Part shown: piece by piece, positions 8,674 to 25,749 of the stretch
Layout: every line of letters begins with the position of its first letter
Position numbering within the stretch: the first letter of the stretch is position 1
Assembly: GCA_022450595.1 (NCBI GenBank)
Contig: JAKUPT010000026.1
Coordinates: 1-40,067, forward strand
Reading direction: 5' to 3'
Length of the DNA: 40,067 nucleotides
Origin: Bdellovibrionales bacterium
GTDB lineage: Bacteria; Bdellovibrionota; Bdellovibrionia; Bdellovibrionales; UBA1609
Notes under the pieces: model-generated
What the model saw: only the letters and a program-made list of their open reading frames with translations
Told to the model about the DNA's origin: nothing
The model's database searches: none
Made by a program: the position numbers and the translations under genes

Positions 8674-9846
8674 TTATAAGCCTTTTAAAAACTCACGTGC
8701 TTCTTTTCGGTCAAAATAAGATAACTCATATTCTATTACACTTAATAGTTTGTCCTTATCTTGTTTAGAGACCTTGGTGGCTAAGATTTTAAAGGCTTCA
8801 AGGCTGTCAAAACTATCTATCAGTCTGATTGTTTGATGAACGAAATCTGCAGAAAGTGGAGTATTTAGTAGTGGGGAAAGCATTCGAACTATATCAAGTT
8901 TTTCGTTAAACGAAACATCATTCATTACATAATAAAAAAGTTCTGTTGGTAGTGGTCTCACAATTAAGGGGCTTAGTAGGTCTAGTGTATCTAACTTTTC
9001 ACTAAAACTTACACTGTTTAAAACTAGTTGAATGTCATTGCTATAAAATATGTCATTTGGATCATTATTTTTGACGTACTCTTTTATCAATTTAATTTTA
9101 TTTCCACCCATAGTATTTTCTAGCTTTAATAAAAACTCTGATTTTATCATAGGGAGACTAGATTTATTAACTCGATCTCCATTTTTATCTAAAACAAGTA
9201 TGCTTGAGTTATTAGGTAATGAAACTTTTGTATTTAATAAACAGATTCCAGCCATTCTAAACACTGAGCCTATTCTCATTTGTTTGCAGTATTCATTGCC
9301 TCGTTTTTTATGAATACTTGCTATTGCTCCATCTTCGACGAGCTCAAATCGGTTAATGTAATTATTTAAATAGTCTGAATTTTTAGGATCTGCTGCGAAG
9401 TCGAGTTCAACTACAATAGAGTTGTTATCCTTTGATGATAGTAATTTAATATCGGCTTTATCACTAGGTATTTGTAGTATCTGCGACCTGGTGTCGATAT
9501 CGTTAAAAACTTTTTTCTGTTTGGTAATTTGAGTTTCTGGATAAGAAGATTCGTTTTCATTTGACTCAATAAAGTTAGGAACACTTGTGTCGTTATTTTT
9601 AAAGTATTCATTCATGTCAGTACCAATAACTTCACGAAATATTTCTGAAAATTCATTGTCGGACATATCATTACAGTTAGCAGCTTTTTTAATAATATTA
9701 ATTTTATGGGTACTGTTTAAACCAACGGTATCGTGAACAGTAAGTAGAAACTTTTTCATCAAGCTCTTATCACAGGCATAACTTGTTGTTGAAAATAACA
9801 CACTTGATAAAAAAATTACCAATATATTTGAGTTAAGTAATTTCAT
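8674..9846 (-). CDS. Secreted protein with C-terminal helical repeats (DUF4476-like)
   Basis: The product has 390 residues, with a signal peptide at about 1-24 (ending Thr-Ser-Tyr-Ala before Cys). The middle is acidic and Asn/Ser-rich. The last about 120 residues hold at least two helical repeats of about 35 residues: V-S-F-S-E-K-L-D-T-L-D-L-L-S-P-L and V-S-F-N-E-K-L-D-I-V-R-M-L-S-P-L, each followed by P-L-x-T/A-E/D. A third weaker copy follows (S-F-D-S-L-E-A-F-K-I-L). The F-x-x-K-L-x-x-L-x-x-L-x-P pattern resembles DUF4476 repeats, but that match is from memory. The ribosome site GGAGG lies seven bases before the ATG. No enzyme motif is visible, and a binding or scaffold role outside the cytoplasm is a guess. 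Confidence 0.8.
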   Translation of the reverse strand: MKLLNSNILVIFLSSVLFSTTSYACDKSLMKKFLLTVHDTVGLNSTHKINIIKKAANCNDMSDNEFSEIFREVIGTDMNEYFKNNDTSVPNFIESNENESSYPETQITKQKKVFNDIDTRSQILQIPSDKADIKLLSSKDNNSIVVELDFAADPKNSDYLNNYINRFELVEDGAIASIHKKRGNEYCKQMRIGSVFRMAGICLLNTKVSLPNNSSILVLDKNGDRVNKSSLPMIKSEFLLKLENTMGGNKIKLIKEYVKNNDPNDIFYSNDIQLVLNSVSFSEKLDTLDLLSPLIVRPLPTELFYYVMNDVSFNEKLDIVRMLSPLLNTPLSADFVHQTIRLIDSFDSLEAFKILATKVSKQDKDKLLSVIEYELSYFDRKEAREFLKGL

Positions 9847-11272: not shown

Positions 11273-13588
11273 TTAAAGGTTCTCATTGGACTGATTGCTA
11301 GTCAACCAAGCTGGTTTTATTGCATTTAATTTTGGTGGTATTTTTCCAATACGAACATCTACAGGGTTTGTGTTTTTGGCAACAAAACTATCAGTAAAAG
11401 TAATAACTAAGCCATTAACGATATAGTCTTCTGGAGTTGAAAGTGTATATGTTTCGCCGGTCTTATTAATGCCTGTAATACGAATAAGCTGTTCTCCAGG
11501 TGACAAAACTAATGTTTTAAAACTTTCATTTGCTACTTTTTGAGCAAATGCACCCACATTATTTAAAGCACTAGAATAGTCTGCAGAACATATGGAGCTA
11601 ACGCCTCCTGGAATATACAAATCATTTGCTAAGTTTAAATATTCAGTTCCAAATGATTGTGCACCTTGAAGTGCACATCCAACTTGTTCATTAAGTTCTT
11701 TATCATTGATGATTAGTGATAAAGAGTAACCATCAGCACCAAACATAGAGTCAGCCTTCATTTTAATAACATCTTTCAATGAGGTGGTTTCAGGTGAAAA
11801 GCCCATGTCCTCTTGGTAACTTGAATATTCATAAGGAAGCTCATCGCATCGTGTGGCTTCTTTGTATCCATACCTACGGTATTCTGTAGTATTGAATTCT
11901 CTGTCTGGATGTTTAGCTTCCATGTATTCTATAAGATTAGAATAGGTGTTTCCACCAGAAGTGGTGAAACTGTTAAACATAAGGTTTTTACCTAGTGTAT
12001 CTTTATTATAATCATTGTATTCTGTGCTGTAACTGTTGTATTCATAACAACTAGTTTTACAACTTGTAATGACCTCTTCTTCTGTTGAGCAACTTGTTTT
12101 TTCTCTTACTCTTGTAATGTCATCAGCATTACAAATACCCTCACCAAATGGAATTTCAGAGCACGACTTATCATGTACATCTCTATAAGTGTATTCAGTG
12201 CTTGTTTCAACAAGTTCTGTGCCATCAGCAATGTATCTGTTTTCACAGGTTGCCCATATTTTTCTTCTTGAAACCTTTTGCAGGGCATCGACCGCCCATA
12301 CTCTATATTTTACACGATCACATTCAGCTGTATTAGACTGATCACATTGATTATAGGAATAGTAAGTTCCATATTTTGCATCACAATCACGCTTTTTTAC
12401 AAGTTTTGAATAGCAACTGTTTGCAGTTTCACTTTCGTCATTTTCATCAGTGACAACCAAAAATAAAACATTGTCACCTGCACTTAAAAATTGATTATTC
12501 CCTTTATCAAATAGAGTTCTAGATAAGGTACAAAGCCCTCTTTCTTTAGAATCTCCATGAATGCCAATTTCATCTGATATAACAGAGGTGATTTTATCTT
12601 CAAATTGATTAAACTCATCTTCGGACATATCTGAATCAATGGTCATAACTCCACCGATCGGGTCTCTTAAGCTTGGGGTAATTGTTTTTTCAACGTCGTA
12701 CTGAAAACCACCATAGTAGCCAGGGTCACTGGTAGTTTCGCGGTAGATACCGTTTTCGTCTGTATAACGGTAAAATCTATTATAGTCAGCAATATGATTG
12801 TCTCCATCGTTATGGAATTGTGTTGTTGAGTAGACGTAAAAGCTAACTTTAATTCCAAGCGCTCGTATGCGACTTAATAATGGGCGTATGCCTTGACTTA
12901 AATATTCTTGTGCGGATTTCATACTAGAAGAATTGTCCACAATCATTACAACCTTAAGCTCTTGAGCATCAAGGTTTATCTCTTTATCAGCATTCGATAG
13001 TGTCGGTGTCAGGACTTCTGTTCGACATCCTAAAGCACATTCATCAATTTTTAAAGCTTTTAAAAGCTGAAAATTTATATGATTAATAGTGTTGTTTGAT
13101 TGCTGATTATTAAAGTAATAAAAGTTTCCACTTATTTTTGCTAGAGGGGATTTACAGTTTTTATTACATAAAAAATCAACTTTTAACTTAACTGTTAAAT
13201 AACATTCTTCACCATCGCGACTTTTACTACATTGTTTACCATTACTTTTAAAACCAGAGTCGCCATCATCTTTAAAGTAAACACTATTATTACTATTTCT
13301 AACTATATTAATATATCCAGATTTATTTTTGCATCCATCTTCGCTATCTAAACAGTTAAATACACTATTGCTATTGTCATTTTGTGTGTGCTTCCAAGCC
13401 TCTGGATTATTTAAGATAGAGTATAAGCTATTTTTAATTAATTCACTGGAGTGCATTCTTCTTGTATGATTTTGCTGTTTATTAATATTATTAACTCCAA
13501 ACATAACACTTAAAAAGACCGCTCCGAGAAGTGCAGCACTTACCAAAGCTTCAGTTAAGCTAAATCCTTTATTATTGAGTAAAATCAT
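11273..13588 (-). CDS. Large prepilin-type protein with a von Willebrand A domain (modular minor pilin/adhesin)
   Basis: The product has 771 residues. The N-terminus is a class III prepilin leader: N-N-K-Gly8, then mature F-S-L-T-E with Glu at +5, and a hydrophobic helix A-L-V-S-A-A-L-L-G-A-V-F-L. PilD-type peptidase should cut after Gly8. A pilin-like Cys-bearing region (to about 200) is followed by a VWA domain opening V-V-M-I-V-D-N-S-S-S with the metal site Asp218-x-Ser220-x-Ser222. A later strand (V-L-F-L-V-V-T-D-E-N-D) is followed by a long Cys- and Tyr-rich insert. The layout matches modular minor pilins in which an adhesive domain is grafted on a pilin stem. A tip adhesin for a type IV pilus or T2SS-like filament is inferred. 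A ribosome site GGGAG precedes the ATG. Confidence 0.85.
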   Translation of the reverse strand: MILLNNKGFSLTEALVSAALLGAVFLSVMFGVNNINKQQNHTRRMHSSELIKNSLYSILNNPEAWKHTQNDNSNSVFNCLDSEDGCKNKSGYINIVRNSNNSVYFKDDGDSGFKSNGKQCSKSRDGEECYLTVKLKVDFLCNKNCKSPLAKISGNFYYFNNQQSNNTINHINFQLLKALKIDECALGCRTEVLTPTLSNADKEINLDAQELKVVMIVDNSSSMKSAQEYLSQGIRPLLSRIRALGIKVSFYVYSTTQFHNDGDNHIADYNRFYRYTDENGIYRETTSDPGYYGGFQYDVEKTITPSLRDPIGGVMTIDSDMSEDEFNQFEDKITSVISDEIGIHGDSKERGLCTLSRTLFDKGNNQFLSAGDNVLFLVVTDENDESETANSCYSKLVKKRDCDAKYGTYYSYNQCDQSNTAECDRVKYRVWAVDALQKVSRRKIWATCENRYIADGTELVETSTEYTYRDVHDKSCSEIPFGEGICNADDITRVREKTSCSTEEEVITSCKTSCYEYNSYSTEYNDYNKDTLGKNLMFNSFTTSGGNTYSNLIEYMEAKHPDREFNTTEYRRYGYKEATRCDELPYEYSSYQEDMGFSPETTSLKDVIKMKADSMFGADGYSLSLIINDKELNEQVGCALQGAQSFGTEYLNLANDLYIPGGVSSICSADYSSALNNVGAFAQKVANESFKTLVLSPGEQLIRITGINKTGETYTLSTPEDYIVNGLVITFTDSFVAKNTNPVDVRIGKIPPKLNAIKPAWLTSNQSNENL

Positions 13589-14423
13589 AACAAAGATCTC
13601 CCGCGGTCAATTTAATTATTTCTATCTATCTGTCTTTATCGGTAATGTCTCTTTATTAATAAACAACAATAGTATAAAAGATTTAAGAAAAAATCATTTC
13701 ATTGTATCAATTTTGGAAGAATTAAAAATTTCAAAATATATATCAATTTAAGACATCACTTTTGAACACCTCACGTTTTATTTGCATTCTTTATTCAGAT
13801 ATGTATTTTATTATGATTTATTTGATTAAGTGTTTACACATGCGTAGACTACTCTTATAGCTCCTCATGTAAAACTAGCAAAACATTTTCAACTCACAAT
13901 GTTTATGCTGCCTTAAAAGAGGATAGCAGTCTTGTAACTTGGGTATAGTCTCATAATGGTGGGGATAGCTCAAAAGTATTCATTTTGTCAGTGATGAAAC
14001 CTTTTGTGTCATACGTGTGGACGACTCATTGGTTTGTACAGGGAACATGTCTACTTTTAACACTGATTTGCGAGGTCGCCCTTAAAGCATTTAATTAATA
14101 TTTGATATTATCTAATAATGTCATACAGCCATTTCTGTAGAATTTTTTTGTATTTACCTACGTGGTATTATTCAAATTAGTTTCATTAAGATTTGGCCTA
14201 ATAATCTCTTGAGGATTATATTTTAGAAAATAATGCAAAAACGATAATTTATTATTATTAAAACCATACAAAGATAGTTATTTTAAGGCCTTAATCTCTG
14301 AGTTTTAACCCATTTTGAAACCAATTTCTTATAAAATATATAAGTGAATCAGTAAGTTATGTCTAATTTCATCCAGTGGTGATATTTATTTAGGCCTTAG
14401 TTGTTGATGCTGTGGGGGCGTTT
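13589..14423. other. 835-base AT-rich region without an intact gene
   Basis: This divergent spacer separates the prepilin/VWA gene from the giant membrane protein gene. It has no intact coding frame. One short open plus-strand frame (13969-14085) encodes a peptide with F-C-V-I-R-V-D-D-S-L-V-C-T-G-N, which looks like one RCC1-type repeat and may be a gene relic. I found no tRNA, terminator or clear repeat. The unusual length suggests lost genes or long regulatory DNA. Confidence 0.45.
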
Positions 14424-17400
14424 ATGTCTGGTTTCAAACATTGTTTATTATATCTCCTTTCACTTTCTATTTTATTCACAAGTGGACCGGTTCCTTTTTC
14501 TGTGAACAAGGCCCATGCGGAACAAACTTCCTCAGAGGATGCCGAGCTTGTAAGGCAACAAAAACTAGAAGAATTAAGACAAGCCATTTTAACCCCAGAA
14601 AGGGGAGGGGCTGAGCTTGATCCTTTTGACTTGTTAAGACAGCGAGTGATTGATGATAGAAACGAAAAGCTAGATGCCGTTGAATACCAGATGAGTATTG
14701 AGGACTATCTCGACCGTCAAAAACACTTCCAAGATCAAATTAAAACTCTGAATGAACTCGAACAAAAAGTTTTTGAAAAGCTAAGAGGGGTATCAGAGCC
14801 CTCAGACAAATACGCAGAACTCACTCTAGTGCTAGAAGATATCAAGTCTCGAAGAGCCCTCGCTCAATTGGAGTTAGATGACCTAAGACAATATGATCCT
14901 AGGCTTGGTAACAGCTTGCCTGTGGACTACATGGTTGATCGTGAGATTAAAACTAAACACTATTGGGGAAATAAGCTTCGCCTTAGAATTGAAAGTTCTG
15001 GTGAGCCTGTTATGGAGGTGAAGCAGGCAGACTTCAAACATGCTTTTAGTCCTAAATTTAGTAAAGAAAACCCTATTGATGGCTTAAATACATCGGAGCG
15101 TGATTTAACCTTTAGTTTGGTCGATCCCAAGGGCCGTCATTTGAACGAGTTTATGATCCCTGTTGAGGCGGTTTTCTTTTTTGGTCACTATTTAGTTTTT
15201 ATAGAAAAAAACCAATTAAATAAAAGCAGTGGTCAAATTCCAATTCGATTTGTTGATTTAAACTTTTTTAAGCCAAACATTGGAAATGCTCCTTTGGCTG
15301 TTTACACATTTCCGTTAAATATCTCAGAAGCGCCCGGCACGGCTTCAATAGAAAATGGCTATTTAAAAATTGGCCAACAAAAACTAAGCTATCAGCAGTT
15401 TGCTATGCTGTCTCAAACTCAGCAGTTGATATTTAACGTAAACGTTGCACTTGCCGACTCTAAAACTTACGAAAGTGTACAACCCCTTATCGATGAGATC
15501 TTAGAGTTTTTAAGAAAGTCCATGGCAGCAAAAGATAAGCTTTTTAATGATCAGATTGAAAGAGCGGCATCGGTCACACAGTTTACCCAAGAGCAGTCAC
15601 AACTGCTTAGAGAAAAAAACAAAATTAACCTTGATGAGGTAAAACCTCTATTAGAAGAGGCCATGAAAGATGGTAAGCTCACAAGTGAAGAGTTTGAAAC
15701 TATAAAAAAATACTTAGATTCTGAAAAATCAATCATAGACACAAACACAGCCCTCATTCAGGGGCGAAGCCTCACTAATAGAATTAAACTTTTGATGAAC
15801 TTTTTGATTCAGCCAAGGCCTCAAGGCTCACCCAAAGTCTTTGATAGCTTAATTCTGATGGCTTCAGGCAGTAAAGAGGACCGCTCCAGAGTTTTGGACT
15901 TGAGTCGAAACAGCTTTGCTCATTCCACTCTTAAGTATGGAGCGGCTGTGGGTGGTGTATTGCTCGCCTCAAGCTTTTTACCAGAGCCCTATGCGATTAA
16001 TTTTTATAAAATCAATGATCTTATTAGTGCCACTCATCAACATTTTATGGGCTATTTGTCCCATGCAAATTATGGGCAGGCCTATGTTGAAATAGCTAAA
16101 GACTCTTTTGTAACTTCTGTTACAGGCTGGACTTACTTCTTTCAAACCTATTTTGCAGATGGTGTTTGGGCGAAGTTCTTATACGGTTTAGGAAGTGTAC
16201 TACTTGTGCCTTTAAAGGTGTTTTCATCAGTGCACCTCACGGTCAACTCCTACAAGATGTTTAGAAAAACCCTTGAACTTAGGAATTTAAGTGAAGGGGA
16301 GCTTAGCTTTTTACAGGCCTATAAAAATGCGGCCAAACAGGATCAAAAAAGATATTGGCAAGAGCTTGCTGATGCTGAAAAAAAGGTCTCTGGCAGTGAT
16401 GTCAACAATCTCACTGAAGAGGAGTTAAGGCTGCTTCAGGAGCATTTGTATCGACTTAAAACTGGTCGAGAGAGCTTAACTGTATTAGAAAAAGAGATTG
16501 CTCGTGAGCACTTTACAGAAGAAAAGCCCACCTCAAAATTCACTTCTATGATGACTGGCTTTAAGCGCTTATCTATTTTTGGTAAAAAAACATCTAAAAG
16601 CATAGATGCAAAAGCCGCAGAGATGAAGCTTAAAGATGTGGACACATTAAGACAGGCCTTAGCTTCTACCTTTTTAAGCTATTCAGCCCTTAGGTCCACT
16701 TTTAAGTTCAATGCTATTACTTGGAACTATTTATTTATTACAAGATCCTATGTGTTTTCCCCAGTTAAATGGTTGATGTATTTAATATATCCCAACTACT
16801 TTAATGTGACAGTCACTACAAGAGAGGGCCGTCAGCATTTTCCTTCCAGATATAATGGAGGCCTTGAGCTTTGGCCGCAAAAAATTCAAAGACATTTGTC
16901 TAAAGCAACACATAATCGCTACCTGCGTGACTCTAAGATCTCAAATTTATTTATAAGCTCACAAGGCTTAAAAAACCTTACAGCTTTTGAGTCTTATGTG
17001 GCTTCTATGGAAGCGGTTGCAATGGAGATTGCCAAAAAGCAATCCCAAAAAGCTTTGATCGAGAAAATTGCGGATCCAAAAAGGGTTATGGTGCTATTTG
17101 ATTCTTCAAATAATCCAGGAGAAGTTTCAACTGGGATTAAAAACCTTCATGACTCAAAAATTAAAAAGCTTAAAAGATCGGAAAAAATATTTTATAGAGC
17201 CTACTTTACTAGGACTTTTGATGTTGTCATGCAGGGCTTTGTTTCTCAACTGCATGGGATTGATAAAGACATGTCCATGGACCCAGAGAGATTCGCAAAA
17301 GAGTTTAGAAAGGGTCTTAAAAATGGCAGCATTGAACCGGTAGATTTGAATCAAAATAAAGTTTTGGAAATTGAAGCTGAGTTAAAAAGCATTATTGATT

Positions 17401-18734
17401 ATAATAAGATATTTAATTGGGCTTCAGAAGTTTCTAAAAATTCTGAGAAATTTACAGAAAGGGTGAATTTAAAGTTTCGACATAAACTGCTTGAAACAAT
17501 ACACCCTAATAACCCTCAGATTAAAAGGTTTCTGACTGTTAAAGACAAAGTCGAACAACCTAGGGCTATGGAGCGCGCCATGAGAATGGAGGTTTCAAGC
17601 TTACTAACATCCATTCCTATGGGGGTAATCTCAACTCTAGCTCTTTACGCAGGTGTTAGCAGCGGACTGATAATGCCCTTTGATCCAGAGGCCTTAAACA
17701 CAGAAACTCACTATAGATACATGTCTCGATATCTTTTTTATAGCGGCTTTATTCCTGGAATTATTCTTGGACTGCTGGCCAACACATGGATGAAGGTTCA
17801 AGAAGATGCACGAGTGGATTCTTTAGGGGGATTTAATAAGGCCATAAAATTTTCAGACAGCAGCAAAGGCTTTTGGAGATATTATTTAAAGAACTTTTTG
17901 AAAAACCCATCCAACAAATGGGCTGATAACCACATTTATATATTAAAACTTGTGACGGCTAACATTCCAGCCGCCGCCGTGACGATTATTGTAAGTAACT
18001 TATATGGACTGGGCCGGATCGATCTTGGCTCGTTTATTGGTGGCTACTTAATTGTTTACGGAACAGTGTTGTATGGTTTAAGTGTAAAAATGGGGCAGGC
18101 TTTTGAGCTGGCATCCTCTTGGGTTTATGCCAAAGTTCCACGTAAACTTCGTGCCTCACCTGAAGCTCAAAAATACATCAACGGACAGCTTCAAAAGAGA
18201 AAAACCATGTTTTCGTTTTATGAAAACATTTGGGAAGTTGGAATTGTCGACGCCATAGCTGGAACCATGTTTATATTAAAAGATAACGTGATCTACGGCT
18301 CACGTGCTTTCTTGCGAGTGGTATTCGGTGGTGAGACACCAACTGTTTTAGCTGTGAATTTTGCAGATAAAATGATTGAGTCGCTTCGGTCGATCCCTGG
18401 GGTACAAACAGCCCTTGAAGGCTTTAAAACCCTGATATCCAATAACTACGAAGCCTTTGAGCGCTTTCCAGAAAAGCTTTCAATGCCACCAGAAGGCATT
18501 CAAAGAGCTGTTGAAAACACAAGCCTTCCTAAAAACGCTGTGGCTGAATTTATTGGTAAAACTTCTGCCATGGTGACAACACTGGGGCTATTTACGGCCA
18601 CTCCTTATGTGATATCAGAGATCAGTCACAGAAGAAAAGAGGCAAAGCTTCAAAAAAGAGGAGCTGAATATATTAAAACTCATCCTCAGTATCACTCAAA
18701 AGTAAGTAATAAGTGTGAGCAGTTGTTTCGTTAA
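14424..18734 (+). CDS. Giant multi-pass membrane protein of unknown function (1436 residues)
   Basis: The N-terminus has a signal or anchor helix (C-L-L-Y-L-L-S-L-S-I-L-F) ending near K-A-H-A-E. Next come a charged, probably coiled-coil region (about 40-165) and a mixed domain to about 500. Hydrophobic segments follow near residues 505-525, 580-605, 1065-1085, 1104-1122, 1176-1219 (probably two) and 1381-1397. Long charged helical stretches lie between them. The ATG at 14424 is preferred because GGGGG lies about six bases upstream; a GTG at 14412 would add four residues. I recognise no enzyme motif and no transporter signature. The size, exported N-terminus and paired membrane segments suggest an envelope-spanning scaffold, which is an inference. 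It stands alone, and a stem-loop follows. Confidence 0.85.
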   Translation: MSGFKHCLLYLLSLSILFTSGPVPFSVNKAHAEQTSSEDAELVRQQKLEELRQAILTPERGGAELDPFDLLRQRVIDDRNEKLDAVEYQMSIEDYLDRQKHFQDQIKTLNELEQKVFEKLRGVSEPSDKYAELTLVLEDIKSRRALAQLELDDLRQYDPRLGNSLPVDYMVDREIKTKHYWGNKLRLRIESSGEPVMEVKQADFKHAFSPKFSKENPIDGLNTSERDLTFSLVDPKGRHLNEFMIPVEAVFFFGHYLVFIEKNQLNKSSGQIPIRFVDLNFFKPNIGNAPLAVYTFPLNISEAPGTASIENGYLKIGQQKLSYQQFAMLSQTQQLIFNVNVALADSKTYESVQPLIDEILEFLRKSMAAKDKLFNDQIERAASVTQFTQEQSQLLREKNKINLDEVKPLLEEAMKDGKLTSEEFETIKKYLDSEKSIIDTNTALIQGRSLTNRIKLLMNFLIQPRPQGSPKVFDSLILMASGSKEDRSRVLDLSRNSFAHSTLKYGAAVGGVLLASSFLPEPYAINFYKINDLISATHQHFMGYLSHANYGQAYVEIAKDSFVTSVTGWTYFFQTYFADGVWAKFLYGLGSVLLVPLKVFSSVHLTVNSYKMFRKTLELRNLSEGELSFLQAYKNAAKQDQKRYWQELADAEKKVSGSDVNNLTEEELRLLQEHLYRLKTGRESLTVLEKEIAREHFTEEKPTSKFTSMMTGFKRLSIFGKKTSKSIDAKAAEMKLKDVDTLRQALASTFLSYSALRSTFKFNAITWNYLFITRSYVFSPVKWLMYLIYPNYFNVTVTTREGRQHFPSRYNGGLELWPQKIQRHLSKATHNRYLRDSKISNLFISSQGLKNLTAFESYVASMEAVAMEIAKKQSQKALIEKIADPKRVMVLFDSSNNPGEVSTGIKNLHDSKIKKLKRSEKIFYRAYFTRTFDVVMQGFVSQLHGIDKDMSMDPERFAKEFRKGLKNGSIEPVDLNQNKVLEIEAELKSIIDYNKIFNWASEVSKNSEKFTERVNLKFRHKLLETIHPNNPQIKRFLTVKDKVEQPRAMERAMRMEVSSLLTSIPMGVISTLALYAGVSSGLIMPFDPEALNTETHYRYMSRYLFYSGFIPGIILGLLANTWMKVQEDARVDSLGGFNKAIKFSDSSKGFWRYYLKNFLKNPSNKWADNHIYILKLVTANIPAAAVTIIVSNLYGLGRIDLGSFIGGYLIVYGTVLYGLSVKMGQAFELASSWVYAKVPRKLRASPEAQKYINGQLQKRKTMFSFYENIWEVGIVDAIAGTMFILKDNVIYGSRAFLRVVFGGETPTVLAVNFADKMIESLRSIPGVQTALEGFKTLISNNYEAFERFPEKLSMPPEGIQRAVENTSLPKNAVAEFIGKTSAMVTTLGLFTATPYVISEISHRRKEAKLQKRGAEYIKTHPQYHSKVSNKCEQLFR

Positions 18735-19408: not shown

Positions 19409-20293
19409 GTGGAAAAACTAACTATTGCCATTCAAAAATCTGGACGTTTAACAGATAAAACTTTAAATATACTCTCACAGTGTGGGCTTGAGTTCCATAT
19501 TAAAAAAGATGTGCTCTTTGCTAGCTGTGCAAGCTACCCCGCAGAACTTATGCTGGTGCGGGATGATGACATTCCAGCCTATATTGCTAACGGCACCTGT
19601 GACCTAGGTTTTGTAGGGGAGAATGTTTTAGAAGAAAAAGTACTTAAAAATAATAATTACGATTTAGACATCCCCATTATAAAAAAAATGAACTATGGCA
19701 AATGCAGGCTAAGTATTGCAGTTCCTAAAGAGCAATACTTTGAAAGTGTTAAGGATTTAGAAGGCAAGGTCATTGCCACTTCTTATCCCAATATCTTAAA
19801 TGACTTTTTAAAAGCCCAAGGAGTTGATGCCAAAGCCACAATGATCAATGGCGCAGTTGAAATCACCCCAAAGCTTAATGTGGCCGATGCCATTTGTGAC
19901 ATTGTATCTACTGGCGGCACTCTTAAAGCCAATGGCCTAAAAGAAGTGGCTCAAATTTATCAAAGTGAATGTGTGTTGGTGGAAAGCCCAAAAAGCATTT
20001 GTGATGAAAAAAGAAAGATGATCGATCAGCTTTTACAAAGACTTGATGGAGTGCTCTCGGCTCAAAACACCAAATATGTTATGATGAATGCCTCAAAGGC
20101 AAGTCTTGATAAAATTAAAGAGATACTACCAGGGGCAGAAGAGCCTTCCATTATGCCTTTAGCACAAAGTTCAGACAAGGTGGCCGTCCACATAGTGTGC
20201 AAAGAGGAAGTGTTTTGGAAAACCATTGAGCAATTAAAGGCCGCCGGGGCAAGCTCAATTTTGGTACTACCCATAGAAAAATACATACAGTAG
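19409..20293 (+). CDS. hisG: ATP phosphoribosyltransferase (HisG, long form)
   Basis: HisG commits ATP and PRPP to histidine synthesis by forming phosphoribosyl-ATP and is normally feedback-inhibited by histidine. The 294-residue length is that of the long form. It has a catalytic core with A-I-Q-K-S-G-R-L near the start, C-D-L-G-F-V-G-E-N and the PRPP-binding D-A-I-C-D-I-V-S-T-G-G-T-L. A C-terminal about 75-residue ACT-like regulatory domain follows (V-A-V-H-I-V-C-K-E-E...A-A-G-A-S-S-I-L-V-L-P-I-E). No HisZ partner is therefore needed. The start is GTG 19409 with AAAGGA eight bases upstream. It is the first gene of the his operon, and hisD follows after nine bases. Confidence 0.97.
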   Translation: MEKLTIAIQKSGRLTDKTLNILSQCGLEFHIKKDVLFASCASYPAELMLVRDDDIPAYIANGTCDLGFVGENVLEEKVLKNNNYDLDIPIIKKMNYGKCRLSIAVPKEQYFESVKDLEGKVIATSYPNILNDFLKAQGVDAKATMINGAVEITPKLNVADAICDIVSTGGTLKANGLKEVAQIYQSECVLVESPKSICDEKRKMIDQLLQRLDGVLSAQNTKYVMMNASKASLDKIKEILPGAEEPSIMPLAQSSDKVAVHIVCKEEVFWKTIEQLKAAGASSILVLPIEKYIQ

Positions 20294-20302
20294 GGTTTAA
20301 TT

Positions 20303-21598
20303 ATGAAAACAGTGCTTTGGAGTGATCTCACTCCAGATGAAAAATTAAAAATATTAAAAAGACCTGAAGTACTACAGTCTGACGAACTCAGGCTTAAGGT
20401 GCAAGAGCTTAAACTGCAGGTGAAAAATCAAGGCGACAAAGCCGTTAGAGAGCTCACCAAAAGGTTTGATCAGGTTGAGCTTGATAGTTTTAAAGTCTCA
20501 AAGCCCGAGGTGCAGTCGGCCTACCAAGCTGTAGACTCTGAGTTTTTAAGTGCCATACAAACAGCTATTAAAAACATTGAGTCTTTTCACAAAGCACAAC
20601 AACAAACTGAAATCAGTGTTGAGACTATGCCAGGGGTTGAGTGTAAACAAGTGGTAAGACCCATTGAAAAAGTCGGACTCTACGTTCCTGGCGGCACAGC
20701 TCCACTTCCATCCACTGTGATGATGTTGGCCATGCCGGCACAAATTGCGGGATGCTCCTTAAAAGTGATGTGCACACCCCCAAGGCCTGATGGAACCGTG
20801 GACCCTCATATTTTAGTGGCAGCTGACATGTGCAAAGTGGATGAGGTTTATAAAGTGGGCGGAGTGCAAGCCATTGCCGCCATGGCCTATGGCACCACCT
20901 CAATTTCTAAAGTGGATAAAATTTTTGGTCCAGGAAACTCTTGGGTGACCGAGGCAAAGTCTCAAGTCAGTCTTGACCCTAAGGGAGCAAGTATTGATAT
21001 GCCCGCCGGGCCCAGCGAAGTGATGGTTGTGGCTGACAGCACTGCCAGTCCTGAAAGTGTGGCCGCAGACCTTTTGTCACAAGCCGAGCACGGGGCTGAC
21101 TCTCAAGTGGTCTTGGTCACCAATAGCATCTCTTTGATTGAAGATGTGGAGTTTAACATTCGTAAGTTTTGTAATTCATTAAAACGCACAGAGCTTATTA
21201 AGCAGTCTTTAAAACATGCTGTATTTATTGAAGCCTCGGATTTTGAATTTATTGAGATCATTAACATGTATGCCCCAGAGCACTTAATACTAAACACCAA
21301 AAACTGTGAAGAGCTTGTAGACAAGGTGAATAACGCCGGTTCTATTTTTGTGGGCCCATGGTCTCCTGAGTCAGTGGGCGATTACGCCAGTGGCACGAAC
21401 CATGTTCTTCCCACCTATGGATATGCCAAAGTTTTTGGCGGCGTGAACTTAGACAGTTTTATGAAAAAGATCACTGTTCAAAAACTATCAGAGCAGGGGC
21501 TTAATAATATAGCCCCTAGTGTTTTAAAGTTGGCTGAAACAGAGGGTCTAGATGCCCATGCGTTGGCGGTTAAAGTAAGGTTAAAAAAAGATGTTTGA
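20303..21598 (+). CDS. hisD: Histidinol dehydrogenase
   Basis: HisD carries out the last two steps of the pathway, oxidising histidinol to histidine with two NAD and a zinc ion. The product has 431 residues, the usual length. Conserved stretches include V-G-L-Y-V-P-G-G-T-A-P-L-P-S-T, G-G-V-Q-A-I-A-A-M-A-Y-G-T, I-F-G-P-G-N-S-W-V, D-M-P-A-G-P-S-E-V, zinc/catalytic S-Q-A-E-H-G, Y-A-P-E-H-L, and G-T-N-H-V-L-P-T-Y-G. The gene overlaps hisC by eight bases, so translation of the two is probably coupled. Confidence 0.97.
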   Translation: MKTVLWSDLTPDEKLKILKRPEVLQSDELRLKVQELKLQVKNQGDKAVRELTKRFDQVELDSFKVSKPEVQSAYQAVDSEFLSAIQTAIKNIESFHKAQQQTEISVETMPGVECKQVVRPIEKVGLYVPGGTAPLPSTVMMLAMPAQIAGCSLKVMCTPPRPDGTVDPHILVAADMCKVDEVYKVGGVQAIAAMAYGTTSISKVDKIFGPGNSWVTEAKSQVSLDPKGASIDMPAGPSEVMVVADSTASPESVAADLLSQAEHGADSQVVLVTNSISLIEDVEFNIRKFCNSLKRTELIKQSLKHAVFIEASDFEFIEIINMYAPEHLILNTKNCEELVDKVNNAGSIFVGPWSPESVGDYASGTNHVLPTYGYAKVFGGVNLDSFMKKITVQKLSEQGLNNIAPSVLKLAETEGLDAHALAVKVRLKKDV

Positions 21599-22610
21599 AA
21601 AACTACTAAGACCTAAAATTTTAAAACTCAAAGCCTATGAATCAGCGCGCTCATTAAACTTAACGGCTGATCACTTTTTGGATGCCAATGAAAACTTTGA
21701 CGGTCCTTATAACAGATATCCGCAGCCAAGGCCTGAGTCTATATTGAATGCTTTAAGTGATTACTACGAAACTTCAAAAGAAAGTATTTTTTTAGGCCGT
21801 GGCAGTGATGAAGCCATTGACACTTTAATGCGCTGTTTTTGTGAACCAGGAAGCTCTAGCATTCTTATTACGCCTCCCACCTATGGAATGTATGAGGTGT
21901 CCGCAGAAATTCAAGGAGCTTTTGTAAAAAAAGTGCCCTTAGATCTGGACTTTGATTTGAATGTAAACCCTGTGCTTCAGTCTATTGATCCGTCCACAAA
22001 AATGATCTTTCTTTGTTCGCCTAATAATCCCACGGGTAACGTTTTAACTCGTGACAGAGTTCTAAGTTTGTTGGACAGAATCAAGCAAGATGTTTTAGTG
22101 GTGATTGATGAGGCTTACATTGAGTTTTCTCAAGAAGAGAGCTTTGTTAAAGAATTAAAAAACTTTGAAAACCTCATTGTATTAAGAACTGTTTCAAAAG
22201 CTTTTGGGCTTGCTGGGTTAAGACTTGGTGTGGCTATTTCTAACCCTGAGCTTATAGCTGTTATGAACAAAGTAAGAGCTCCGTACCCCATTGCTCAACC
22301 CGTGGTTGAGGCCTTTGAGAAGTTTTGGGCCGAGTTTAATCCCGAAAGCTTTCAGACTTCTATTAATGAGTACATGAAACTTAAAAATCTATTTGTTGAT
22401 AAATTAAAACAAAAACAAGAGGTGCTACGAGTCTACCCAAGTCAAACTAACTTTGTGCTAGTGGAGTTTAAAGATGCCACACAAGTTTTTGAAAGACTAA
22501 AGTCAAAAGGCCTTTTAGTAAGAGATCAACAGTCAAAAATAAAAAATGCTTTACGGATCACTGTAGGAAGTGCTGAGCAAAACCAGTTAATTTTAAAGGA
22601 GCTAGTATGA
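21591..22610 (+). CDS. hisC: Histidinol-phosphate aminotransferase
   Basis: HisC is a PLP enzyme that transfers an amino group from glutamate to imidazole acetol phosphate. The product has 339 residues, near the 350-360 norm. It has the fold-type I aminotransferase marks D-A-N-E-N near the start (substrate Asn), G-R-G-S-D-E-A-I, C-S-P-N-N-P-T-G-N, D-E-A-Y-I-E-F, and the PLP lysine Lys203 in T-V-S-K-A-F-G-L-A-G-L-R-L-G. It starts inside the end of hisD and overlaps hisB by four bases (ATGA). Confidence 0.96.
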   Translation: MFEKLLRPKILKLKAYESARSLNLTADHFLDANENFDGPYNRYPQPRPESILNALSDYYETSKESIFLGRGSDEAIDTLMRCFCEPGSSSILITPPTYGMYEVSAEIQGAFVKKVPLDLDFDLNVNPVLQSIDPSTKMIFLCSPNNPTGNVLTRDRVLSLLDRIKQDVLVVIDEAYIEFSQEESFVKELKNFENLIVLRTVSKAFGLAGLRLGVAISNPELIAVMNKVRAPYPIAQPVVEAFEKFWAEFNPESFQTSINEYMKLKNLFVDKLKQKQEVLRVYPSQTNFVLVEFKDATQVFERLKSKGLLVRDQQSKIKNALRITVGSAEQNQLILKELV

Positions 22611-23701
22611 AACGTGTGGCTTTTTTAGATCGAGACGGCACTTTAATTTGTGAACCGAGTGACTTTCAAGTGGATGCCCTTGAAAAGGTGAAATTTGCTA
22701 AGGGTGCAATTTCGGCTCTTAAAACCTTATCCCAGAATGGCTACAGTCTTGTGATGGTCACCAATCAAGACGGTCTTGGAACAGAAAGCTTTCCTGAAAA
22801 AGACTTTAAAGTTTGCCAAGACTTTATATTACAAGTTTTTGAGTCAGAAGGTGTAAAGTTTGAGGACATATTGATTTGCCCTCACAAACCTGAAGACCAG
22901 TGCTTGTGTCGCAAGCCTCACTTAGGACTTGTGCAAAAGTACTTACGCGACAACAATGTTGATTTTGATCATAGCTTTGTGGTGGGGGATCGTGAAAGTG
23001 ACATGCTATTGGCTGAAAACTTAGGCGTTCAGTTTTATCCCTATTTTGATGAACTCAATGAATCAAAAAAAGCAGATGGCCTGCAGGGCATGAATTGGAG
23101 TAAGATTTTAAAATCAGTTTTAAAGCAAAGCTCTCAAGCCACAGTGACAAGAAAGACCAAAGAGACCGAAATCAATTGTGAGGTAGAGGTTTACGGAGAA
23201 GGAAAATCTCACATACAAACAGGCCTTGGTTTTTTTGATCACATGTTAGAGCAATTATCTAAGCACTCAGGTTTAGATCTTAATATTAGTTGTCAAGGAG
23301 ACCTTGACATCGACGATCACCACACCGTTGAGGATGTGGCCATTTGCCTTGGGCAAACGCTTAAAAAAGCCTTAGGCCCAAAAGTGGGAATTGAGCGTTA
23401 CGGCAGTGTACTACCAATGGATGAAGCGCGGGCCGAAGTACTCATTGATTTGAGTGGCCGGTTTCATTTTGACTTTAAGGGTGAGTTCAAATCTGAAAAT
23501 GTCGGTGAGTTAAGCACTCAAATGGTGCCCCACTTTTTTAGGTCACTGGCAGAAAACATGCAAATGACTTTACATATGTCAGTCCAAGGTGACAATGATC
23601 ATCACAAAGTGGAGATCTTATTTAAGACTTTTGCCAAGTGCTTAAAACAAGCTCTTACCAAGTCTGGCCATGGAGTTCCCTCTACTAAGGGGGTTTTATG
23701 A
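22607..23701 (+). CDS. hisB: Bifunctional histidinol-phosphatase / imidazoleglycerol-phosphate dehydratase
   Basis: This 364-residue fusion does two steps. The N-terminal HAD-type phosphatase (about 1-165) has F-L-D-R-D-G-T with nucleophile Asp8 and acid/base Asp10, V-T-N-Q-D-G, the zinc-binding C-P-H-K-P...C-L-C-R-K-P, and V-V-G-D-R-E-S-D. The C-terminal dehydratase (about 168-364) has G-L-G-F-F-D-H-M, the metal-binding D-D-H-H-T-V-E-D, M-D-E-A-R-A, H-F-F-R-S-L-A, and D-N-D-H-H-K-V-E. Fusion of the two is typical of enterobacteria and some other groups, while many bacteria keep separate genes. It overlaps hisC and hisH by four bases each. Confidence 0.96.
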   Translation: MKRVAFLDRDGTLICEPSDFQVDALEKVKFAKGAISALKTLSQNGYSLVMVTNQDGLGTESFPEKDFKVCQDFILQVFESEGVKFEDILICPHKPEDQCLCRKPHLGLVQKYLRDNNVDFDHSFVVGDRESDMLLAENLGVQFYPYFDELNESKKADGLQGMNWSKILKSVLKQSSQATVTRKTKETEINCEVEVYGEGKSHIQTGLGFFDHMLEQLSKHSGLDLNISCQGDLDIDDHHTVEDVAICLGQTLKKALGPKVGIERYGSVLPMDEARAEVLIDLSGRFHFDFKGEFKSENVGELSTQMVPHFFRSLAENMQMTLHMSVQGDNDHHKVEILFKTFAKCLKQALTKSGHGVPSTKGVL

Positions 23702-24288
23702 TTTACCTAGCAAACTCTGGGGGCTATAACACTTTTTCTATTCAAAAGGTCATAGAGCGTGTTGGTGGAAAAAGTGAAATCACCTCAAACCCTGAGACTC
23801 TTTTAAAGGCCGACAAGGTTCTTATTCCCGGTGTGGGCCATGCAAAGCATGCCATGGACAAAATCAACAAACTTGAGATTGCGGAGGCCTTAACTCAAAG
23901 AACTCGTCCCACACTTGGAGTCTGTGTGGGAATGCAGTTGATGTTTTCCCATTCGGAAGAAGGGGATGTGGAGTTATTAAATATCTTCCCGGAAAGAGTG
24001 CAACACCTGCCAAAAAGTTTAAGAGCCCCACACATGGGGTGGAACAGTTTAGCCATTCAAAACTCATCCAGCAAACTTTTAAAAGGCATTGAAAATGGAG
24101 AGTTTGCCTACTTTGTTCACTCTTATTATGTGGAAAATAATAAAAACACATCGGCCTACTGTGAGTACGAGGATTTAAAAATCACAGCCGCTATAGAATG
24201 TGATAATTTTTTTGCCACACAATTTCACCCAGAAAAGTCAGCATCAGTGGGTGAAAAAATTATGAAAAACTTTTTGGAGATGTCATGA
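23698..24288 (+). CDS. hisH: Imidazole glycerol phosphate synthase, glutamine amidotransferase subunit
   Basis: HisH hydrolyses glutamine and passes ammonia to HisF. The product has 196 residues, the normal size. The triad is visible: nucleophile Cys76 in G-V-C-V-G-M-Q, and His177 and Glu179 in F-H-P-E-K-S. The oxyanion segment P-G-V-G-H-A and the H-M-G-W-N motif are also present. It overlaps hisA by four bases. Confidence 0.96.
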   Translation: MIYLANSGGYNTFSIQKVIERVGGKSEITSNPETLLKADKVLIPGVGHAKHAMDKINKLEIAEALTQRTRPTLGVCVGMQLMFSHSEEGDVELLNIFPERVQHLPKSLRAPHMGWNSLAIQNSSSKLLKGIENGEFAYFVHSYYVENNKNTSAYCEYEDLKITAAIECDNFFATQFHPEKSASVGEKIMKNFLEMS

Positions 24289-24992
24289 TTTATCCAGCTA
24301 TTGATTTAATCAACAACAAAGTGGTTCGATTGGTTGAAGGGGACTTTAAACAAAAAACAGAGTACTCTAATGACCCCGTATCCCAAGCCCAACTGTTTCA
24401 AGACATGGGTGCGAAGTACCTACATGTGGTGGATTTAGATGGGGCTAAAAAAGCTCAACCTGTACAAACCAAAATGATTCAAAAAATTATTGAATCGACC
24501 AACCTAAAGGTCCAAGTTGGCGGTGGTGTGAGGTCTTATCAACACGTAAAAGACTATGTCGATTTAGGTGCAGATAAAGTGATTGTGGGAAGCCTAAGTG
24601 TTAAACAGCCGGAATCCTTTAAAACTTTACTACAAGAGTTTTCAGACCATATTACATTAAGTGTTGATGTGGACTCTAAGTTTAATATTAAAATTTCTGG
24701 CTGGCAGGAAAGCACAGACCTTAATCTCTTTGAATTCTTAAAAGAGTTTGAAGGCCTCACACAAGTTTTATGCACCGACATTTCTAAAGATGGAAAACTG
24801 CAAGGCATTAATAAAGAGCTATATTTAGAGTTAAAAAAACAATTTCCCAGTTTGTGTTTTTTAGCCTCAGGGGGTGTTAGCCAAATGCAAGACATTCAAT
24901 GGGTGCGTGAGCATCAAATTGGTGGAGTGATTGTTGGCAAGGCTATCTATGAGAACAAGATTGATTTAAAGGAGCTATTTTATGCTCACTAA
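24285..24992 (+). CDS. hisA: ProFAR isomerase (HisA)
   Basis: HisA catalyses an Amadori rearrangement of ProFAR to PRFAR. The product has 235 residues forming a (beta/alpha)8 barrel. Catalytic Asp7 lies in P-A-I-D-L, the second Asp at about 128 in L-S-V-D-V-D, and the half-barrel phosphate sites in V-G-G-G-V-R and A-S-G-G-V-S. The last 11 bases overlap hisF. Confidence 0.95.
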
Positions 24993-25749
24993 AAGAATCA
25001 TTCCTTGCCTTGATGTGAAAGACGGACGAGTGGTTAAAGGAGTGCAGTTTAAAAACCACCGCGATATGGGCGACCCAGTGGAGCTGGCTCAATACTACTC
25101 CGACCAGGGAGCGGATGAGCTGGTGTTTTATGACATCACGGCCAGTGCAGAAAAGCGCTCAGTGGATATAAACTGGATTCAGCAGGTGGCCTCAAACATT
25201 AACATTCCATTTTGTGTCGCTGGAGGAATCAGTGATGTTGAACAAGCAGAAAAAGTATTGGCATCAGGCGCTGATAAAATCAGTATCAATTCTCCAGCTT
25301 TAATAAATCCAAGTCTCATTCAAGAACTCTCTCAGGCTTTTGGACGTCAGTGTGTAGTTGTGGGAGTAGATTCCAAATGGCTTAGTGATGATTACTATGT
25401 CTATAAGTTCACAGGAAAAGAAGAAACCTCCCAGAGGGCAGGACTTAAAACCACCGACTGGGTGAAGCAAAGTTGTGAGCTAGGTGCTGGTGAAATTGTT
25501 TTAAACTGTATGAACCAAGACGGCGTTCGTAATGGTTATGACATAAGTCAGTTAAAACTCATTCGAGAAATCTGCCCTGTACCATTGATTGCCTCAGGTG
25601 GAGCGGGTCTTCCTGAGCACTTTGTTGAGGTGTTTAACACTTGTGATGTGGATGGTGCCCTAGCAGCTACAATCTTTCACAACCAAAGTGTGAAGATTGC
25701 AGATTTAAAACAAATATTAAAAAATGCAAATGTTCCAACAAGGATTTAA
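24982..25749 (+). CDS. hisF: Imidazole glycerol phosphate synthase, cyclase subunit
   Basis: HisF condenses PRFAR with ammonia from HisH, giving imidazole glycerol phosphate and AICAR. The 255-residue barrel has catalytic Asp11 in [12 protein letters not shown] and Asp130 in V-G-V-D-S-K, plus the phosphate-site motifs V-A-G-G-I and A-S-G-G-A-G. It is paralogous to HisA and sits directly after it, three bases before hisIE. Confidence 0.97.

Follow-up and report, generated by a model that had tools for sequence, protein, structure and literature searches.

PilY1 is an adhesin made of a VWA domain and a beta-propeller which sits at the tip of type IVa pili, and it is not itself a pilin. A different arrangement is seen in PilB of Streptococcus sanguinis, in which a pilin module is followed by a VWA domain with a MIDAS and with arms that flank the metal site (PMC8179133; 7b7p). 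Variable C-terminal modules at the pilus tip, present in several paralogous sets, have been described for the Kil/Tad minor pilins of Myxococcus, where KilL4 to KilN4 have added domains, one of which was reported to be without a known structural relative (PMC12075869). In Bdellovibrio bacteriovorus, variants of the MIDAS adhesin Bd0875 in residues D66 and E213 do not bring prey invasion back to normal, and a cap formed by amino acids 143–176 is located upstream of the loop-3 acid (PMC11003981).

Here we describe a gene from a Bdellovibrionales bacterium (assembly GCA_022450595.1, contig JAKUPT010000026.1), found in a stretch of 40,067 nucleotides which was analysed as a whole and to which we refer as the window. 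We consider it likely that the product of this gene is a type IV minor pilin of modular (bimodular) build which acts as a MIDAS adhesin at the pilus tip, with a PilB-like architecture and a MIDAS domain of the Bd0875 type. The initial annotation had given no strand for the gene, which lies on the minus strand (Table 1).

Table 1 Features of the putative VWA-bearing minor pilin gene in the window.
Feature	Residues	Positions	Strand	Basis
Whole gene, probable modular minor pilin with VWA domain, ATG start	771 aa	11273..13588	-	
Class III leader MILLNNKG; predicted cleavage by prepilin peptidase behind Gly8	1-8	13565..13588	-	Sequence; N_methyl 21.9 bits
Pilin stem: long N-terminal helix (11-59), then beta part with conserved Cys	9-178	13055..13564	-	AlphaFold2; alignment
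Linker with Cys184 and Cys188	179-207	12968..13054	-	Alignment; low-confidence in AlphaFold2 model
VWA domain, first part	208-388	12425..12967	-	VIA-align Z 14-15
Predicted MIDAS loop 1, D218-x-S220-x-S222 (D-N-S-S-S)	218-222	12923..12937	-	Sequence
Predicted MIDAS loop 3, T-D-E-N-D	380-384	12437..12451	-	Sequence
Insert (arm), 212 residues with 11 Cys and 22 Tyr	389-600	11789..12424	-	Composition; low-confidence model
VWA domain, second part (fold match to about 688)	601-690	11519..11788	-	VIA-align
Small C-terminal beta domain	691-749	11342..11518	-	Profile match to Bd0875 C-terminal region and compact relatives

The genome contains two further copies of the gene, an intact one (C67, 49% identical) and one split by a frameshift (C73, at L022:8658-10963), the latter showing 64% identity over its first part and 42% over its second. 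A single-protein query against the contigs of the genome returned no match. The frameshift in C73 lies near 9530-9545 and each half is otherwise open, which may indicate an error of sequencing or assembly, or else a recent loss. A programmed frameshift was considered and set aside, as the shifted frame is already homologous again ahead of the AAAAATTT run.

The N-terminus reads MILLNNKG^FSLTEAL, and the class III leader proposed by the initial annotation is present as described, with Gly8, Phe at +1 and Glu13 at +5. The N_methyl model exceeded its cut-off when the genome was searched (21.9 bits) and fell below it by Pfam hmmscan (16.8 bits), and nothing that we found contradicts the leader as a prepilin peptidase substrate. 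The protein has this prepilin leader in place of a lipobox anchor, and the helix is followed by a globular pilin module, as in class III type IV pilins. Residues 1–178 align with two plain prepilins (201 and 200 aa) encoded directly after the C67 paralog, with which the stem shares a GF..G..C...C...C...C pattern and which stop at the start of the linker to the VWA domain. Judging from this alignment, the VWA module appears to be a clean graft on a minor pilin, with the pilin and VWA modules joined by a short linker, as in modular pilins of the PilB kind. Weak Pfam matches to CBM_X2 and DUF678 were under cut-off and were not used, and a promoter and terminator scan found no more than in shuffled sequences.

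Structure prediction agreed with the initial annotation in returning a VWA fold. Residues 208–688 matched integrin and VWF A domains with Z 13–14 over approximately 187 residues (VIA-align); the full-length AlphaFold2 model gave Z 14.2 against an integrin I-like domain, with 187 residues spanning 208–688, and with a second model, of residues 196–771, an integrin I domain scored Z 15.0 and S. sanguinis PilB (7b7p_A) scored Z 14.6 over 207 residues. Because a span of 480 residues matches only about 187, the insert appears to be looped out of the VWA domain, and in the models residues 208–388 and about 601–690 are predicted to form one VWA fold. Mean pLDDT of the full-length model was 48, with the VWA core at approximately 70–80 and the insert and linker very low. 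Both models were built on an alignment of 8 sequences, without the paralogs or the relatives from whole-genome searches, and the low confidence of the insert in both is attributed to this small number of sequences. The D-x-S-x-S motif and the T-D-E-N-D strand that had been noted ahead of an insert of about 200 residues are both found in the sequence. D218, S220 and S222, as well as E382, are invariant among prepilin-borne relatives. The loop-3 acids are present; in the G-x-x-x-E segment at 345–349, the MIDAS Thr expected in loop 2 could not be recognised. Profile searches against Pfam, which gave the N_methyl pilin match, did not bring up any VWA model with the 771-aa protein. As Bd0875 is likewise without any Pfam match, we ascribe this to divergence.

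Bd0875 was recognised in genome G061 by protein length and residue numbers, as an open reading frame at about 827 kb which, when started at its GTG, encodes 378 aa with D66 and E213. A profile alignment (A2) with the 771-aa protein as its first row was used as the hhalign query, and D218 and E382 aligned with D66 and E213 of Bd0875 (probability 98.8, E 9.5e-17); the region of the C-terminal domain also matched in profile comparison. The two proteins have in common a homologous VWA domain with equivalent acids, a shared C-terminal region and extra material near the MIDAS. However, Bd0875 is a lipoprotein and has no pilin stem, its cap precedes the loop-3 acid whereas the insert described here follows it, and it is a compact VWA protein, compact and insert-bearing VWA domains being placed apart in our tree. 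PilB, for its part, belongs to another phylum and another filament, has a mature protein of 454 residues and is described without a 212-residue Cys-rich insert (PMC8179133), and the present protein differs from it further in its extra C-terminal beta domain and in that its loop-2 Thr is not recognisable. The likeness to the Myxococcus proteins, which are Tad pilins, is one of description.

The insert starts directly after the metal-site strand and no family was matched by it in the family scans. Its enrichment in Cys and Tyr, which had been singled out by the initial annotation as the unusual part, is real: 11 Cys and 22 Tyr in 212 residues compare with 1.16% and 3.2% in the other proteins of the window (binomial p 4.5e-5 and 1.6e-6, for boundaries picked after the sequence had been seen). 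The two residues fared differently among the paralogs, as all 22 Cys of the protein, including 11/11 in the insert, are conserved in both same-genome copies, while only 9 of the 22 Tyr are matched in C67; a dityrosine role was set aside on account of this lack of conservation of the Tyr positions. Identity between paralogs falls to 30–37% in the insert, compared to 49–66% in the flanking VWA parts, so that a Cys scaffold is kept while the region drifts, which points to disulfides.

Profile searches of related genomes, which the initial annotation had proposed as a check, found the same architecture. Prepilin-borne copies are present in 7 of the 141 genomes of the order (G000, G079, G081, G094, G040, G126 and G023, the last truncated at a contig end) and in two others of the same phylum (G349 and G350), and are therefore rare, being found in nine of the genomes searched. 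The same VWA domain is far commoner across the order on lipoprotein leaders than on prepilin stems. By estimate, the insert is nearly absent from compact proteins (Bd0875, Bd1483, G002) and reaches about 600 residues in G045, and the number of Cys climbs with its length. Given that one VWA domain occurs with inserts of such different lengths, we read the insert as an arm of variable size that is built on disulfides. In a tree of the first VWA part, compact and insert-bearing forms are set apart (100/99.6), and the prepilin label requires 2–3 changes on it; the tree test neither demonstrates nor rejects a single origin of prepilin-borne VWA domains (p-AU 0.226). In a 1048-aa protein (L081:4622-7768), the VWA motif is not reached until about residue 708, which constitutes another arrangement of the same domain.

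The absence of pilus genes next to the gene had been pointed out before, and holds for the window copy, which has no pilin or pilus genes beside it; its downstream neighbour on the same strand encodes a secreted protein of 265 aa without family matches. It does not hold, however, for the C67 paralog, which has two prepilin genes directly downstream, nor for most other prepilin-borne relatives, which are flanked by pilin genes in minor-pilin operons. The G079 and G081 copies are each located between two pilin-like genes of approximately 300–320 aa (L070, L071, L072, L073), a pilin-like gene precedes the G040 copy and two pilins follow the G094 copy. A minor pilin neighbouring the latter (L075:6474-7742) has a fibrinogen-like GGGWT domain (2.7e-11), and on this domain match the operon appears to encode a second adhesive pilin of modular build. 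No pilin neighbours were found for relatives L074, L099 and L100. The genome to which the window belongs encodes type IVa pilus (T4aP) ATPases and a major-pilin-like gene, a type II secretion system (T2SS) cluster, Tad genes and a PilD-type peptidase. It also has nineteen N_methyl matches spread over many contigs, several in open frames of 400–490 codons, which make up a large set of minor pilins, possibly modular ones. Elsewhere in the window, a divergently oriented gene (14412-18734) encodes a 1440-aa protein without Pfam or NCBIfam families, and a histidine biosynthesis run occupies 19409-25749 (hisG, hisD, an aminotransferase, hisB-like, hisH-like and two His_biosynth genes).

Given the presence of a complete-looking T2SS cluster with pseudopilins in the genome, and of weak stem matches to GspG and GspI models among the neighbouring pilins, the stem could instead join the T2SS pseudopilus, with the VWA head binding or gating secreted cargo rather than a surface. 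We regard this as unlikely, as the T2SS cluster contains a G-H-I-J-K set of its own and neither the gene nor its relatives are part of it, and as the relatives bear VWA and fibrinogen-like adhesive domains, as pilus tips do. It is also quite unlikely that the protein is a surface MIDAS adhesin whose prepilin-like N-terminus is only an inner-membrane anchor and never enters a filament. The occurrence of the same VWA domain on lipoprotein leaders across the order would agree with such an anchor, as would the lack of pilin neighbours at the window copy, but the stem is a full pilin module homologous to plain pilins and not a leader alone, most relatives are in pilin operons, and a VWA domain on an inner-membrane anchor would not reach the cell exterior.

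An alternative of another kind concerns the insert, which might be a functional unit of its own (an enzyme, a metal-binding or a tyrosine cross-linking region), leaving the VWA domain a mainly structural role. Its large size, its Cys/Tyr-rich composition and a fold predicted without confidence leave room for this idea, which we nevertheless hold to be very unlikely in view of the poorly conserved Tyr positions (9/22 in C67), the lack of a family match and a length that varies among relatives from none to about 600 residues, unlike that of an enzyme. The preferred reading of a pilus-tip adhesin, which the initial annotation had advanced for surface or prey attachment, fits the leader, the computed stem homology and VWA fold, the conserved metal-site acids equivalent to those of Bd0875, the Cys scaffold, the operons of the relatives and the T4aP, T2SS and Tad genes of the genome. 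Counted against it are the lack of pilin neighbours at this copy, the unrecognisable loop-2 Thr, the low AlphaFold2 confidence, the frameshift in C73 and the three pilin-free relatives.

If the protein is a pilus-tip adhesin, prepilin peptidase would cut behind Gly8 and the hydrophobic helix would enter a type IV filament, for which T4aP is favoured over T2SS. The minor pilin would most likely cap the tip of this filament, because the shaft could hardly accommodate a head of this bulk. There, the VWA domain would hold a divalent metal at the predicted MIDAS (D218, S220, S222 and the acidic loop 380–384) and grip a ligand on a surface or on another cell, and pulling by the pilus would load the bond. 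The 212-residue arm, placed beside the metal site and presumably kept in place by disulfides as most of its other residues change, would likely set specificity. Because its VWA domain is related to the adhesin that Bdellovibrio requires for invading prey efficiently, the protein probably serves as the gripping tip of a retractable pilus, and it may have a role in predation.

PilY1 and the present protein both have a VWA domain, only the latter being a pilin. The PilY1 family (PF05567) was found in none of the 369 genomes of the phylum; these searches were silent in the first named controls, and myxobacterial genomes, which then served as positive control, matched in four of four cases. VWA-bearing minor pilins may therefore fill a PilY1-like tip role in the phylum, though they are rare.

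The locus joins two things that have been studied separately, pilins with a grafted VWA domain such as PilB and the Bdellovibrio MIDAS adhesin for efficient prey invasion. Of chief interest are the variable disulfide arm and the fact that one domain is common to lipoproteins and pilins, which, within one order, have it with widely different insert lengths beside the metal site. What predatory or related bacteria choose to grip thereby becomes testable gene by gene. We tentatively suggest, as a possibility about which we remain rather doubtful, that in the Bdellovibrionota, in which PilY1 was not found, one MIDAS domain has changed carriers, from lipoprotein anchor to pilus tip or the reverse, and that the arm, absent in some proteins and up to about 600 residues long in others, could be a fast-changing recognition element which sets the target of each pilus, prey included.
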